34,150 nucleotides of DNA from contig JARGFN010000006.1 in NCBI GenBank assembly GCA_029210665.1, positions 1 through 34,150 on the forward strand, written 5' to 3'. Under the pieces are notes generated by a model. That model did no database searches. It was not told where the DNA came from and saw only the letters and a list, made by a program, of their open reading frames with translations. This document shows positions 4,568 through 33,802 of the stretch, piece after piece. Each line of letters begins with the position of its first letter. Position 1 is the first letter of the stretch. This DNA comes from Desulfobulbales bacterium (GTDB lineage Bacteria > Desulfobacterota > Desulfobulbia > Desulfobulbales > JAGXFP01). Both the position numbers and the translations under genes were made by a program.

Positions 4568-4616
4568 ACCTGGCAATGGCGTGGCAAATCATTTTTTGCG
4601 AACTCATCAGTTTTCC

Positions 4617-4620
4617 GGAG
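4617..4620 (+). promoter_or_regulatory. Shine-Dalgarno GGAG positioning a non-AUG start of hflX
   Basis: GGAG at 4617-4620 lies seven bases before ATA 4628, which is ideal spacing. There is no ATG, GTG or TTG in this frame between the selB stop codon (4565-4567) and TTG 4691, so this ribosome site supports initiation at ATA. Confidence 0.55.
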
Positions 4621-4627
4621 CAGGGTC

Positions 4628-6259
4628 ATAGCAAGAATTCTTGGTAATACGGTCGGACTGAAAACCGATCAGGCCCGACGCCTTGAGAAATTGGCCAACC
4701 GGCGGATGACCCCGGATCTGGTGATCAGTCCGGAGGTGGCTCGCGAGCTTTCCGGGTTTTCCCGGGAAATCGGCCGCCAGATCGGTCTGCTGATCGATCG
4801 GGCCGGACGGGTGGATTCCGTTATTGTCGGCGACCAGCGCCGGATCGTGATCCCCGCTCTGGATCAGGCCCGGGGGGCGGCCGGCCGGCTGAAGGGATTG
4901 CGCCTGGTTCATACCCATCTGGCCGGCGAGGATCTGAGCGAAGACGATCTTATGGATCTGCTCTTTCTGCGCCTGGATATGGTGGCCGCGATCAAGGTCG
5001 GGGAGGACGGGCTGCCCGCCGTTTTACTTAGAGCGCATCTGGTGCCGCGGGCGGTTGCCGGTCGCAACTGGGTTACCCTGCCGCCGGTTGCGCCGAGTCG
5101 GCAGCCGCATGATTTCCGGGATCTGATTAAGGCCCTGGAGGATGAATTCGCCCGGGTCGGGTCCGGCGCCCGGGTTGACCGGAACCGGGACCGGGCCATT
5201 CTGGTCAGCGTCACGACCGCTTCCCGGGCCAGGGCCGGCGAATCGATGCTGGAGCTGGAAGAACTGGCCGAATCCGCCGGGGTGAAGGTATTGGATACCG
5301 TGATCCAGAGGCGTCCCAGGCTTAATCCGAAACTGATGATGGGCAAGGGCAAACTGGCCGAAATCATGCTCCGGGCCCTTACCCTCGATGCCAATTTATT
5401 GATTTTCGATCAGGAGTTGAATCCATCCCAGATTCGTTCGATAACCGACCATACCGAAATGCGGGTCATTGACCGGACTCAGTTGATCCTGGATATATTC
5501 GCCCGCCGCGCCCTGAGCAGGGAGGGCAAGCTGCAGATCGAAATGGCCCAGCTTAAGTACATGCTGCCCAGACTGGGAACCAGGGACGACGCCCTGTCCA
5601 GATTAACCGGCGGGATCGGCGCCCGCGGTCCCGGCGAGACCAGGCTGGAGATCGACCGGCGGCGGATCAAGGACCGTCTTACCAAGCTGGCCGGCGAGTT
5701 GAAGAAGGTCGGCCGGGAACGGCATCATCGGCGGAGCAGGCGGCGCAAAAGGGAACTGCCGGTTATCTCCCTGGTCGGCTACACCAATGCCGGCAAATCG
5801 ACCCTGTTAAACAGCCTGACCCATAGCGCTATAGTCGCCGCCGATAAACTTTTCGCCACCCTGGATCCAACCAGTCGCCGTCTGCGTTTTCCGCGCGATA
5901 TGGAGGTGATAATCACCGATACCGTCGGATTCATCCGGGATCTGCCGGCGGAACTTCTCCAGGCCTTCAAGTCCACCCTGGAGGAGCTTGATGAGGCCGA
6001 TCTTCTCGTTCATGTCATTGATATCGCCAATCCCGCCTTCCCTCACCATATCAGGGTGGTCGAAGATTTGCTTAGAGAGCTGGAACTTGATAAAATCCCT
6101 TGCCTGAAGGTCTTCAACAAGATAGACCTGGTAAGCGGCGAGGAGACGGGGAATCTGGCCAGACAGTATGACGCCGTCCCGCTGAGCGCTCTCCATCCCG
6201 AGACCTTTGCCCGGTTTTTCGAGAAGGCCCAACGGATGATAACCAAGAAGTTGAGTTAA
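4628..6259 (+). CDS. hflX: GTPase HflX, apparently initiated at AUA
   Basis: HflX is a ribosome-associated GTPase that splits stalled or hibernating ribosomes. The 543-residue reading has the HflX N-terminal domain, a coiled linker with GGIGARGPGETRLEIDRR, and a G domain with GYTNAGKSTLLNSL, DTVGFIRDLP and FNKIDL. The first family-conserved residues (ARILGNTVGLKTDQARRLEK) are encoded from 4631 on, but no ATG, GTG or TTG precedes them in frame. TTG 4691 would delete about 21 of these residues. ATA 4628 fits both the conservation and the GGAG site at 4617, so I take it as the start. A sequence error (ATG read as ATA) is the main alternative. It lies 60 bases after selB and 3 bases before the DUF4390 gene. 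Confidence 0.9.
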   Translation: MARILGNTVGLKTDQARRLEKLANRRMTPDLVISPEVARELSGFSREIGRQIGLLIDRAGRVDSVIVGDQRRIVIPALDQARGAAGRLKGLRLVHTHLAGEDLSEDDLMDLLFLRLDMVAAIKVGEDGLPAVLLRAHLVPRAVAGRNWVTLPPVAPSRQPHDFRDLIKALEDEFARVGSGARVDRNRDRAILVSVTTASRARAGESMLELEELAESAGVKVLDTVIQRRPRLNPKLMMGKGKLAEIMLRALTLDANLLIFDQELNPSQIRSITDHTEMRVIDRTQLILDIFARRALSREGKLQIEMAQLKYMLPRLGTRDDALSRLTGGIGARGPGETRLEIDRRRIKDRLTKLAGELKKVGRERHHRRSRRRKRELPVISLVGYTNAGKSTLLNSLTHSAIVAADKLFATLDPTSRRLRFPRDMEVIITDTVGFIRDLPAELLQAFKSTLEELDEADLLVHVIDIANPAFPHHIRVVEDLLRELELDKIPCLKVFNKIDLVSGEETGNLARQYDAVPLSALHPETFARFFEKAQRMITKKLS

Positions 6260-9118: not shown

Positions 9119-9391
9119 CCTGAATCCGTGACGGCTTAGTGGAAAATTTTGCTTTATTTGTTTATTGTTACGTAAAATAACCTTTTTTACTGAGTCGTCT
9201 CGATTAACCCCGCCGCCCTGCGGGGCGCCCGATAACGGCGCATCTGCTGCGTTGGCAACTCGTTGATATAAAGCTGAGTTGAGCAGCTTGCCTGCTCGTA
9301 CGAAACTTATGCCCTGTGGGTGTACCATTAGTATTATCAACATCGTTGCCGCCTTGCATCTGCGCCGTTCTCGAACGCTCACGGATTCAGG
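9119..9391 (-). mobile_element. MITE-like element, copy A (inverted orientation), between ntrY and ntrX
   Basis: A 273-bp non-coding element bounded by CCTGAATCCGTGA (9119-9131) and its exact inverse TCACGGATTCAGG (9379-9391). Read on the minus strand it aligns along its length with copy B at 12628-12898, including the GGCGCCC/GGCGGCGGGG block and the segment with GGGCATAAGTTTCGTACGAG. Flanking bases (TGATC left, TAATT right) match at only three of five positions, so a clean target duplication is not preserved. It fills nearly all of the 305-base gap 9117-9421. Confidence 0.85.
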
Positions 9392-12627: not shown

Positions 12628-12898
12628 CCTGAATCCGTGAGCGTTCGATAACGGTGCAGATGCAAGGCGGCAACTCGTTGATAATACTAATGGTACACCC
12701 AAAGGGCATAAGTTTCGTACGAGCAGGCAAGCTGCTTAACTCAGCTTTATATCAACGAGTTGCCAACGCGGCAGATGCGCCGTTATCGGGCGCCCCGCAG
12801 GGCGGCGGGGTGAACCTGGCAATCCAGGGAAAAACGATTATCTAATGAAATTACAAACTTATAAATGAAATTTACCACGAAGCCGTCACGGATTCAGG
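12628..12898 (+). mobile_element. MITE-like element, copy B (most complete), with TTTAA target duplication
   Basis: A 271-bp element bounded by CCTGAATCCGTGA (12628-12640) and TCACGGATTCAGG (12886-12898). It is flanked directly by TTTAA on both sides (12623-12627 and 12899-12903), a perfect 5-bp target duplication. Inside is a large imperfect foldback (12646-12788). The rest is AT-richer and ends with ACCACGAAGCCG before the right terminus. It has no transposase, so it must be moved in trans. It fills the gap between the ClpX-like gene and hemB, starting 17 bases after the stop codon. Confidence 0.9.
12646..12788. repeat. Foldback (hairpin) module inside element B
   Basis: CGATAACGG (12646-12654) pairs with CCGTTATCG (12780-12788), and GGCAACTCGTTGATA (12669-12683) pairs perfectly with TATCAACGAGTTGCC (12750-12764). 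The bases between the two paired blocks match imperfectly, so the unit can form one long stem with a loop of about 66 bases. The same block is reduced in copy C and absent from copy D. Confidence 0.8.
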
Positions 12899-24244: not shown

Positions 24245-24491
24245 CCTGAATCCGTGAGCGTTCGAGAACGGTGCAGATGCAAGGCGGCAACGATGTTGAT
24301 AATACTTCGGTATATCAAAAAGTTGCCAACGCGGCACCCCAAGGGCACTTCCTGCGGGGCGCAGATGCGCCGTTATCGGGCGCCCCCGCAGGGCGGCGAA
24401 TGAATTCCAGCTACCACGGATCACTGTCTATATTTTACGTAAAAACAAACATATATTGTGAATCAATGCCCTAAGCCGTCACGGATTCAGG
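24245..24491 (+). mobile_element. MITE-like element, copy C, with AATAA target duplication, between ftsH and folP
   Basis: A 247-bp element bounded by CCTGAATCCGTGA (24245-24257) and TCACGGATTCAGG (24479-24491), flanked by perfect AATAA repeats (24240-24244 and 24492-24496). The ends match copy B, while the central part is shortened and rearranged (the GGGCATAAGTTTCG segment is missing). It occupies most of the 341-base gap 24205-24545; the remaining bases show no gene. Confidence 0.9.
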
Positions 24492-26402: not shown

Positions 26403-26442
26403 AGGTACCCCCGAAAGGTTATGGGCAATTCATCTTGTTGTT

Positions 26443-26499
26443 ATACCCGCAGGGCATAAGTTTCGTACGAGCAGACAAGCTGCTCAGCTCAGCTTTATT
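26443..26499 (+). repeat. Internal fragment of the MITE-like family upstream of ftsH
   Basis: The segment matches the loop part of copy B around 12694-12748: GGGCATAAGTTTCGTACGAG, then CAGACAAGCTGCT, CAGCTCAGCTTTAT, with few changes. No terminal repeats flank it, so it is a piece left by deletion or recombination. It starts 41 bases before the ftsH start codon and may overlap its promoter. The rest of 26403-26623 shows no gene. Confidence 0.75.
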
Positions 26500-31037: not shown

Positions 31038-32354
31038 TCAGGTTGAATTGTTCGCGGCGTTATTGGAACATATGGTACGGAGCGCGTCAAATACCGGAGC
31101 CAGCTGTCTGGCGGCGGCCCCCTGTTGGGAGCGGGCCGTTAAGCGGGCGGCTTTCGCCGTTTCGGCATAGATCTCCGGCTTCTGGAAAAGCTCTTTGATC
31201 CTTTCGGCCAGTTCCCTCCGGTTCTTGACCATGATGCCGCCGTGCCCTTCCAGAAGCTGTCCGGCATCGCTGAAATCGTCCATGCAGGGTCCGTAAAAAA
31301 CCGGAGTCCCCCAGATTGCCGCCTCAATTATATTGTGGCCGCCGCGGGGAACCAGACTGCCGCCGCAGAAGATGAAATCGGCCGCCGCATATAGTTCGGC
31401 AAGTTCGCCGACGGTGTCAACGATGATGATTTCGGCCCGCCGACCCTTGCGGATCGCCGTGCTGAGCAGCTCATACCCGGTTCCGGCGCCGTCCAGCGCT
31501 TCTCTTATCTCGTCGATTCTTCGGAGATGACGGGGCGCGATAATCAGGACCAGACCGGCCAAGGCGTCTTGCAGACCGTGAAAAACCTCCAGCAGCATTT
31601 CCTCTTCGCCGGTATGGGTGCTGCCGGCCACCAGGACCGGCCGGTCGTCGCCAAGATTGAGTTGTCGCCGCCATTCCTCCCTGGTGGCGGCGGCCGAGAC
31701 CGGTTCCGGCGGATCGTATTTAATGTTGCCAGTGACCTTGATCTTCTTGCGGTCGGCACCCAGGCCGGCAAAACGGTCGGCATCGGCATCGGTAATTGTC
31801 GCGATTATCTCGAAGCCGTTGAGAATTTCCCTGCTGAATTTTTTGACGAGCCGATACCGCCGGTAGGAACGTTCGCTTAATCTGCCGTTCAGCAAAAACA
31901 GCCGGGTGTTGTTGGCCCGCAGCCGACTCAGCAGATTCGGCCATAGTTCGGTTTCAAGACATATATAAAGGTCGGGGCGAATGGCCGCGACCGCCCGGGC
32001 CGCGGCCCCGGGCAGATCGAGGGGGGCGAGGATGCATTTCGCCATGGTTCCGCATTGTTTCCGGGCAATTTCCAACCCTTGCGCCGTGACGGTGGATAAG
32101 ATCAGGAGCGCGGCGGGGAATTTTTTTTTTATTTTGGCCGTCAGGATTCCGGCGGCCAGGATTTCCCCGATCGAGGCCCCGTGGATCCAGATTACGGGCG
32201 CCCCCCCCACCGGAATTACAATATCATTGTAAAACCCTAAGCGCTGCCGCAACCCGGCCCGGTGCCTGCCGGTGATTCCGGAGTAAATCAGGAAGCCGGG
32301 AAAAGTCAGGGCGAAAAGCAGTCTGGTTAGCAAACGATAAATTGCGTAGGTCAA
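31038..32354 (-). CDS. waaA: 3-deoxy-D-manno-octulosonic acid (Kdo) transferase
   Basis: WaaA adds Kdo to lipid IVA at the inner membrane, building the LPS inner core. The 438-residue GT30-family protein has an N-terminal membrane anchor (about 8-24), the RQRLGFY motif, catalytic-base Glu64 in HGASIGE, and the C-terminal GT-B domain with VAGSTHTGEEE, PRHLRR, DTVGELAELYAAADFIFCGGSL and GGHNIIEAA. The only start in frame after an upstream stop is TTG 32354, without a clear ribosome site, so initiation is uncertain by a few codons. It precedes carA by 33 bases. Its presence confirms a Gram-negative envelope. Confidence 0.95.
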   Translation of the reverse strand: MTYAIYRLLTRLLFALTFPGFLIYSGITGRHRAGLRQRLGFYNDIVIPVGGAPVIWIHGASIGEILAAGILTAKIKKKFPAALLILSTVTAQGLEIARKQCGTMAKCILAPLDLPGAAARAVAAIRPDLYICLETELWPNLLSRLRANNTRLFLLNGRLSERSYRRYRLVKKFSREILNGFEIIATITDADADRFAGLGADRKKIKVTGNIKYDPPEPVSAAATREEWRRQLNLGDDRPVLVAGSTHTGEEEMLLEVFHGLQDALAGLVLIIAPRHLRRIDEIREALDGAGTGYELLSTAIRKGRRAEIIIVDTVGELAELYAAADFIFCGGSLVPRGGHNIIEAAIWGTPVFYGPCMDDFSDAGQLLEGHGGIMVKNRRELAERIKELFQKPEIYAETAKAARLTARSQQGAAARQLAPVFDALRTICSNNAANNST

Positions 32355-32440: not shown

Positions 32441-32506
32441 GACGGCGTCGCAAAAAGCACCCGCAAGGGCATAAATCGCCAGCTCCGGCGTTGCGGCAAT
32501 TATTCA
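32441..32506. repeat. Possible truncated dispersed repeat next to element D
   Basis: GACGGCGTCGCAAAAAGC (32441-32458) and the following ACCCGCAAGGGCATAA resemble repeat sequence more than a promoter. The latter part shares wording with the fragment at 26446-26461 (ACCCGCAGGGCATAA). No borders are visible and the call is tentative. The remaining 32355-32440 holds nothing I can name. Confidence 0.25.
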
Positions 32507-32508
32507 AA

Positions 32509-32783
32509 CCTGAATCCGTGATCGGGCGCCCCGCAGGGCGGCGGGGTTAACCCCGGCAATCCAGGGAAAAACAATTATCTAGTGTCTGTCCAGAAATGAG
32601 GATTTTTGTCCGAGAACGAGAAGCAAGGATGTCGGAAAAGCGCAGCGTACTTGGGTACGTGAGCACTTTCCGACTCTGCGGCGACGAAGTTATCGGGCAA
32701 AAAGACCATTTATGGACAGGCACTATCTAATGAAATTACAGACTGATAAGTGAAATTCACCACGAAGCCGTCAAGTATTCAGG
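32509..32783 (+). mobile_element. MITE-like element, copy D, with TCAAA target duplication and a nested insertion
   Basis: Bounded by CCTGAATCCGTGA (32509-32521) and the variant TCAAGTATTCAGG (32771-32783), and flanked by TCAAA on both sides (32504-32508 and 32784-32788). Removing the nested unit and one TATCTA leaves about 127 bp. These align with the ends and right half of copy B, but the foldback (12641-12785 of B) is absent. Its right terminus supplies the final codons and stop of amrS. It fills the gap between waaA and amrS. Confidence 0.9.
32582..32723. mobile_element. Second-family foldback element (142 bp) nested in copy D, TATCTA duplication
   Basis: The ends GTGTCTGTCC (32582-32591) and GGACAGGCAC (32714-32723) are inverse repeats with one mismatch, and the similarity continues inward for about 35 bases. 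The centre has a second inverted pair (GTCGGAAAA and TTTCCGAC), so the whole unit is one imperfect palindrome. It is flanked by TATCTA at 32576-32581 and 32724-32729; copy B has the uninterrupted site ATTATCTAATG. It has no coding potential. Confidence 0.88.
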
Positions 32784-33802
32784 TCAAAAACCCCGGCCAG
32801 TGCGGTATGGCAGTTCCGGCAGGCCCCTTTTTTCAGATTGACGATCTCCGAACTGAAGCCGGTTCGGGTAATCAGCCTTTCCCGGCAATTCGGGCAATAG
32901 GTGCTCTCTCCTTCCGGATCGAGGAGGTTGCCCGTGTAGACATGCTTAAGACCCGCGGCCAGGCCGATCTCCCGGGCCTTTTTTATTGATGAGGTCGGTG
33001 TGACGGGTCGATCGATCATTTTGTAGGTCGGCTGAAATCTGGTGACATGCCAGGGAATATCCGGGTCAAGCGACTTGATGAAGTTGGCGATCTCCTTCAG
33101 CTCGGCCTCGGAATCGTTCCAGCCGGGAATGATCAGGGTGGTCACCTCCACCCATACCCCCAGCTCTTTCATTAAGGTTATGGTGTCAAGGACCGGTTGA
33201 AGCCGGGCGCCGCAGACTTCCCGGTAGAATTTGTCGGTGAAGGCTTTCAGATCTATATTGTTGCCGTCGAGGAAGGGTGCGATTGCCCGGGTCGCCTCCG
33301 GGGTGGTGTAGCCGTTGCTGACAAATACGTTTTTAAGGCCCCGTTCAGCGGCGAGCCGGGCGGTATCCAGGGCAAATTCGAAAAATATCGTCGGCTCGAC
33401 ATAGGTGTAGCTGATGCTGGCGCAACCCAGTTGCCCGGCGCTTTCCACTACTTCCAAGGGGGTGCGATGGTTGCCGATGATCTCATTGTCGTGGAGTGAG
33501 GGGTATTGGGATATATCGTAGTTTTGGCAGTGGCGGCAGTGAAAGTTGCAGCCGACCGTCGCAATCGAGTAGGAGTAGGAGCCGGGCAGGAGATGAAAGA
33601 GCGGTTTTTTTTCGATGGGGTCGACGTTTTCGGTAATCAGCCGGCCGTAGACCAGGCTGTAAAGGGTGCCGCCCCGGTTTTCCCTGACTCGGCAGAGCCC
33701 CCGGCGGCCCTCCTTGATCCGACAGTGATGATTGCACAGAAAACATTGGACGGCGTTCTCATCTCTTTCGCTCCTCCTATAGAACATCGCTTCGTGCAAC
33801 AT
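32771..33802 (-). CDS. amrS: AmmeMemoRadiSam-system radical SAM enzyme (AmrS-type)
   Basis: A 343-residue radical SAM protein. The cluster-binding CxxxCxxC motif is CNFHCRHC (Cys85, Cys89, Cys92). An N-terminal Cys block (CFLCNHHC...GLCRVR) and a C-terminal two-CxxC module (CPNCRERL, CRNCHTAL) are typical of the AmrS group, related to pyruvate-formate-lyase-activating enzymes. The substrate is not established, and the AmrA/Memo partner genes are not in this window. ATG 33802 follows AGAGGGG at good spacing. Unusually, the last codons (Phe-Asp-Leu-Asn-Thr and TGA) are read from the target duplication and terminal repeat of element D, so the native C-terminus has been replaced, probably by a few residues only. 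Confidence 0.92.
   Translation of the reverse strand: MLHEAMFYRRSERDENAVQCFLCNHHCRIKEGRRGLCRVRENRGGTLYSLVYGRLITENVDPIEKKPLFHLLPGSYSYSIATVGCNFHCRHCQNYDISQYPSLHDNEIIGNHRTPLEVVESAGQLGCASISYTYVEPTIFFEFALDTARLAAERGLKNVFVSNGYTTPEATRAIAPFLDGNNIDLKAFTDKFYREVCGARLQPVLDTITLMKELGVWVEVTTLIIPGWNDSEAELKEIANFIKSLDPDIPWHVTRFQPTYKMIDRPVTPTSSIKKAREIGLAAGLKHVYTGNLLDPEGESTYCPNCRERLITRTGFSSEIVNLKKGACRNCHTALAGVFDLNT

Follow-up and report, generated by a model that had tools for sequence, protein, structure and literature searches.

The 142-bp unit that interrupts a repeat in the stretch of Desulfobulbales DNA analysed here (34,150 nucleotides, called the window below) is very probably a non-autonomous element (MITE) that relies for its movement on an ISNCY-family DDE transposase (NF033593) supplied in trans. 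This reading draws on the unit's ends, duplications, target rule and empty sites, on the order in which it and the surrounding repeat were inserted, and on the ends and target that it has in common with ISNCY elements of sister genomes. The bacterial MITE family to which the unit belongs extends across the order and has natural empty and filled sites, a clear target rule and a named likely mobiliser; many palindromic bacterial repeats have no such link to a mobiliser.

The unit occupies positions 32582..32723 (plus strand) and is an imperfect palindrome from end to end, its extent being supported by its borders, by the copies in its own genome, by folding and by insertions across the order. 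Its inverted ends are GTGTCTGTCC/GGACAGGCAC; the left terminal inverted repeat, GTGTCTGTCCAGAAATGA, lies at 32582..32599 (plus strand) and the right one, GTGCCTGTCCATAAATGG, at 32706..32723 (minus strand). The sequence and a comparison of flanks place the two copies of a 6-bp target duplication, TATCTA, at 32576..32581 and 32724..32729, the span 32576-32729 thus consisting of duplication, unit and duplication. The original prediction of a 142-bp foldback inside one copy of another repeat (copy D), with TATCTA on both sides, was right to the base. It had also described the unit as nearly one palindrome over its whole length, with which the folding agrees: the predicted hairpin is full-length, with an apical loop at 32651..32654 (plus strand) and an energy of -70.2 kcal/mol on the plus strand, against -36.6 +/- 3.5 for shuffled sequences (z = -9.6; 0 of 200 shuffles). 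The unit sits between a radical-SAM gene (32771-33802, minus strand) and a KDO transferase-like gene (31038-32354, minus strand), both named from their translations.

The repeat that hosts the unit has inverted ends of the form CCTGAATCCGTGA, 239 of which are found with at most one mismatch in the 2.5-Mb genome, the reversed pattern giving 0, and exact 5-bp duplications accompany 15 of 18 copies (a further pair in the list of duplications, L272 1078-1458, is a spurious match). Its copies fall into three size classes, short at ~120-128 bp, middle at ~219 bp and long at ~271 bp, and the window holds copies at 9119-9391, 12628-12898, 24245-24491 and 32509-32783. Comparison among copies shows the last of these, copy D (32509..32783, plus strand), to be of the short form, with 127 bp remaining when the unit and one TATCTA are subtracted; in its flanks, the 5-bp duplication TCAAA stands at 32504..32508 and 32784..32788. 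Copy B (12628..12898, plus strand) is bounded on either side by 5-bp TTTAA duplications and was said to carry the same site uninterrupted; it does, with the empty target TATCTA at 12839..12844 (plus strand; TATCTAATG at 12839) lying within an unbroken ATTATCTAATG, and three further host-repeat copies (L007, L010 and L014) also keep the site intact. Since the TCAAA duplication lies outside copy D and the TATCTA duplication within it, the host repeat is a second, older mobile family that was inserted first, and the 142-bp unit was inserted second, as the claim of two mobile families with relative ages had proposed. There is a second nested case, in which a 143-bp copy of the MITE family (L058:5798-5940) lies inside a different repeat, CCCCGAATGTAGTTATCGGGGATCCAGG, whose empty version is found 1.3 kb away at the same locus. 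Such nested insertions date two repeat families relative to each other. Elsewhere in the window, an isolated 60-bp fragment of the host repeat's interior, devoid of repeat ends, is present at 26439-26498.

Five matches to the unit were found in its own genome, corresponding to four full copies (100, 99, 99 and 95%) and one degraded part. The genome-wide search called for by the original prediction thus added three full copies, two of them with exact 6-bp duplications. The borders are identical in every full copy, and exact 6-bp duplications flank three of the four (TATCTA, TAACTA and TAGCGA), the fourth having degenerate flanks. Both here and in the insertions gathered across the order, the idea survived the search for copies with divergent borders or no duplication; the duplication of 6 bp holds, and the 4-bp alternative, ATCT, fails. 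The presence of copies that are 97-99% alike, with intact duplications, suggests recent movement, and a source of transposase would therefore have been lost, be absent from the fragmented assembly or be external.

The family extends well beyond this genome. The unit was matched in 24 of 58 genomes searched, and its 18-base end motif, GTGYCTGTCCRNAAATGR, in 43 of 146 genomes of the order Desulfobulbales, with no match for a reversed-pattern control; the named records that carry it include Desulfurivibrionaceae, Desulfobulbaceae, Desulfocapsa and records titled Desulfoarculaceae, all placed in Desulfobulbales. The 102 distinct insertions gathered from the loci read across the order range from 73 to 214 bp, with a mode of 141, 69 copies at 140-145 bp and a second cluster at 153-169. 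Exact duplications flank 54 of the 102 (51 of 6 bp and 3 of 7 bp), while randomly paired flanks match at all six positions in 4.9% of cases. Among the 51 exact 6-bp duplications, the first position is T in 46, the second A in 48, the fifth T in 43 and the sixth A in 47; the target is TANNTA, most commonly TAGTTA/TAACTA or TATCTA. With a length below 500 bp, no transposase gene, terminal inverted repeats, multiple copies, target-site duplications and empty sites, the family has the properties of a MITE. The target in its native state spans the stop codon of a frame of at least 100 codons at 15% of 48 sites versus 3% of 163 nearby TANNTA sites, but these numbers are small and a preference for stop codons was set aside. 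A plasmid collection yielded no match to the unit, and viral contigs were rejected as carriers, their nine end-motif matches all being due to chance and none having a partner end.

The likely mobiliser came to light through lone ends in one genome (G122), which led to a longer repeated element whose C-terminal 102 aa match the NCBIfam model transpos_ISNCY_1 (NF033593). A search of the order with the G122 transposase gave matches in 22 genomes, nine copies being present in G049. The elements measure 1700 bp (G122), 1693 (G030), 1686 (G078), 1846 (G077), 1672 (G063) and 1698 (G049), have ends of the GTGTCTGTCC, GTGTCCGTCC or GTGTCCATCC type, and in five of these genomes are flanked by exact 6-bp duplications: TAGCTA (G122), TAACTA (G030 and G078), TAGTTA (G063) and TAGTTA/TAAGTA (G049). 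Each encodes one transposase, which at full length has 452-481 aa and scores 414-485 bits against a cut-off of 325 for NF033593; the three that were scanned contain the Pfam DDE_Tnp_1 domain. In an alignment of seven transposases, D157, D369 (DGG) and E420 are invariant, the last in a Y/R-E-K arrangement with an R-x3-E-x6-K pattern, and these residues can be read as an intact DDE triad. We take NF033593 elements to be, possibly, the ISDol1 group of ISfinder, with 6-7-bp direct repeats.

The unit agrees with these elements in terminal sequence, in the 6-bp length of the duplication and in the TANNTA target. Seventeen of its first 18 bp are identical to the 3' end of the G122 element and to the 5' end of the G030 element, and because the terminal ~17 bp and the 6-bp TANNTA duplication are common to both, it is best regarded as a MITE of ISNCY-type elements, a membership well supported by ends, duplication and target. 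As to distribution, ISNCY elements occur in the unit's order, and the transposase accompanies the MITEs in some genomes but is not found in the unit's own. The end motif is present in each of the seven genomes whose transposase is at least 74% identical to the query, although some of these matches are the elements' own ends, and paired MITEs co-occur with an ISNCY transposase in G030, G122 and G129. With the more distant transposases (~60%) the ends are shifted (GTGTCCATCC) and the MITE motif is mostly absent, as would be expected if protein and ends change together; in G003, a genome of the same taxonomic family as the unit's own, there is a C-terminally shortened transposase with one GTGTCCATCC-type end. 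NF033594 (ISNCY_2) transposases were also considered as mobilisers and rejected, since their ends do not match. The autonomous elements differ from the unit in being ~1.7 kb long and in carrying a transposase, whereas the unit has 142 bp, no gene, an unrelated interior and a fully palindromic structure. Similarity stops after the terminal ~18 bp, so that the interior does not correspond to a simple internal deletion in any of the elements observed; derivation by deletion is true of some MITEs and is not required of all.

From these likenesses we infer both the mobilisation of the unit by an ISNCY transposase and its strand-transfer route. The transposase would bind the ~17-bp terminal repeat, GTGYCTGTCCRNAAATG, move the gene-less unit in trans and insert it through a 6-bp staggered cut at TANNTA, giving rise to the 6-bp duplication. 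In the window, the older, abundant repeat would have been inserted earlier, leaving its 5-bp duplication, and the unit would then have entered TATCTA inside a short-form copy of that repeat.

A different, unseen DDE transposase, with ends that resemble those of ISNCY elements by chance, is an improbable source of the movement, even though the common end sequence amounts to only ~17 bp and many MITE-bearing genomes, the unit's own included, show no ISNCY transposase. A profile built from seven transposases found none in the unit's own genome or in the two other genomes of its genus, the own assembly being a fragmented MAG of 287 contigs, from which multi-copy elements are easily lost. Likewise, a search of the MITE-rich genomes G001, G012 and G145 for an autonomous element gave, besides a few lone ends, only pairs of MITE size. 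What speaks for ISNCY elements instead is that the unit matches them in its ends, in the length of its duplication and in the TANNTA target, that both are present in the same genomes, and that in the loci read no other element has the unit's ends. Within the literature collection searched, we found no paper tying ISNCY elements to such MITEs.

Inside the terminal repeats, the hairpin is kept through compensatory changes. RNAalifold was applied to 26 copies that are less than 90% alike, and of the 33 pairs that it gives, 14 show changes on both sides. Pairing holds in 95.2% of cells (85.3% for shuffles), double changes are seen in 74 cells (22.4 for shuffles), and covariation scores 0.328 (0.146 for shuffles and at most 0.133 with slid partners); none of 500 shuffles reaches any of these values. 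Kinship among copies inflates the counts of double changes, but the slid control retains kinship and yet stays far lower. The double changes all lie in inner helices, and the outer helix (columns 2-17 with 131-145) has none, as expected for an end bound by protein. Exchange between the two arms could also preserve a palindrome, and covariation is therefore not proof of function.

That the unit is chiefly a structured RNA gene or regulatory hairpin, with mobility secondary, is highly unlikely. Besides the compensatory changes, this would be favoured by the better folding of the left-end strand in 91% of copies, by 11 kcal/mol on average; against it stand the dispersed positions, empty sites and duplications, which amount to mobility, as well as the lack of an Rfam match to the unit. 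The structured small RNA suggested in the original prediction would be compatible with both the folding and the covariation. An excess of G-T over A-C mismatches was discarded as proof of RNA, the strand bias being weak when both strands contribute pairs (78 versus 51). Another proposal is that the whole hairpin, beyond the terminal repeats, is under constraint, diverse interiors keeping the fold, the ~141 bp length and offset internal loops by means of compensatory changes; a folded single strand (RNA, cruciform or single-stranded DNA intermediate) might then be needed for spread or have been adopted by the host, a tentative idea that we consider rather unlikely on balance. The compensatory changes make the importance of the long hairpin for the spread of the element testable.

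Finally, spread of a REP/BIME-type palindrome by a RAYT (Y1 HUH) transposase can be dismissed: the unit is palindromic, these genomes commonly carry RAYT-like Y1_Tnp genes and one lone end-like sequence adjoins an ORF, but 28 of 30 Y1_Tnp loci lack the end motif (at most two mismatches), the REP/BIME association was not found, and the exact 6-bp duplications and empty sites contradict it, as Y1 transposition is not known to make a target duplication.

Among known systems, ERIC and similar palindromic bacterial MITEs are like the unit in being about 130 bp long, nearly one palindrome and mostly intergenic (PMC10969869), but their sequence is unrelated, and for the unit both a likely transposase and a 6-bp duplication are identified. 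Another MITE, Chunjie, is described from the sulfur/metal-reducing bacterium Geobacter uraniireducens, which belongs to a neighbouring lineage, and has conserved ends and direct repeats (PMC10969869); at 178-235 bp it is longer than the unit, and the likeness is one of general description.

Two other palindromes were noted. The lone end-like sequence mentioned above (L153:1501-1535, G001:C41) is a 35-bp palindrome, and the ORF that adjoins it resembles the C-terminal (helix-turn-helix) domain of DnaA. In the window, a 70-bp imperfect palindrome (71% complementary) lies between two genes at 4603-4672 and, according to the repeat search, is unrelated to both repeat families.
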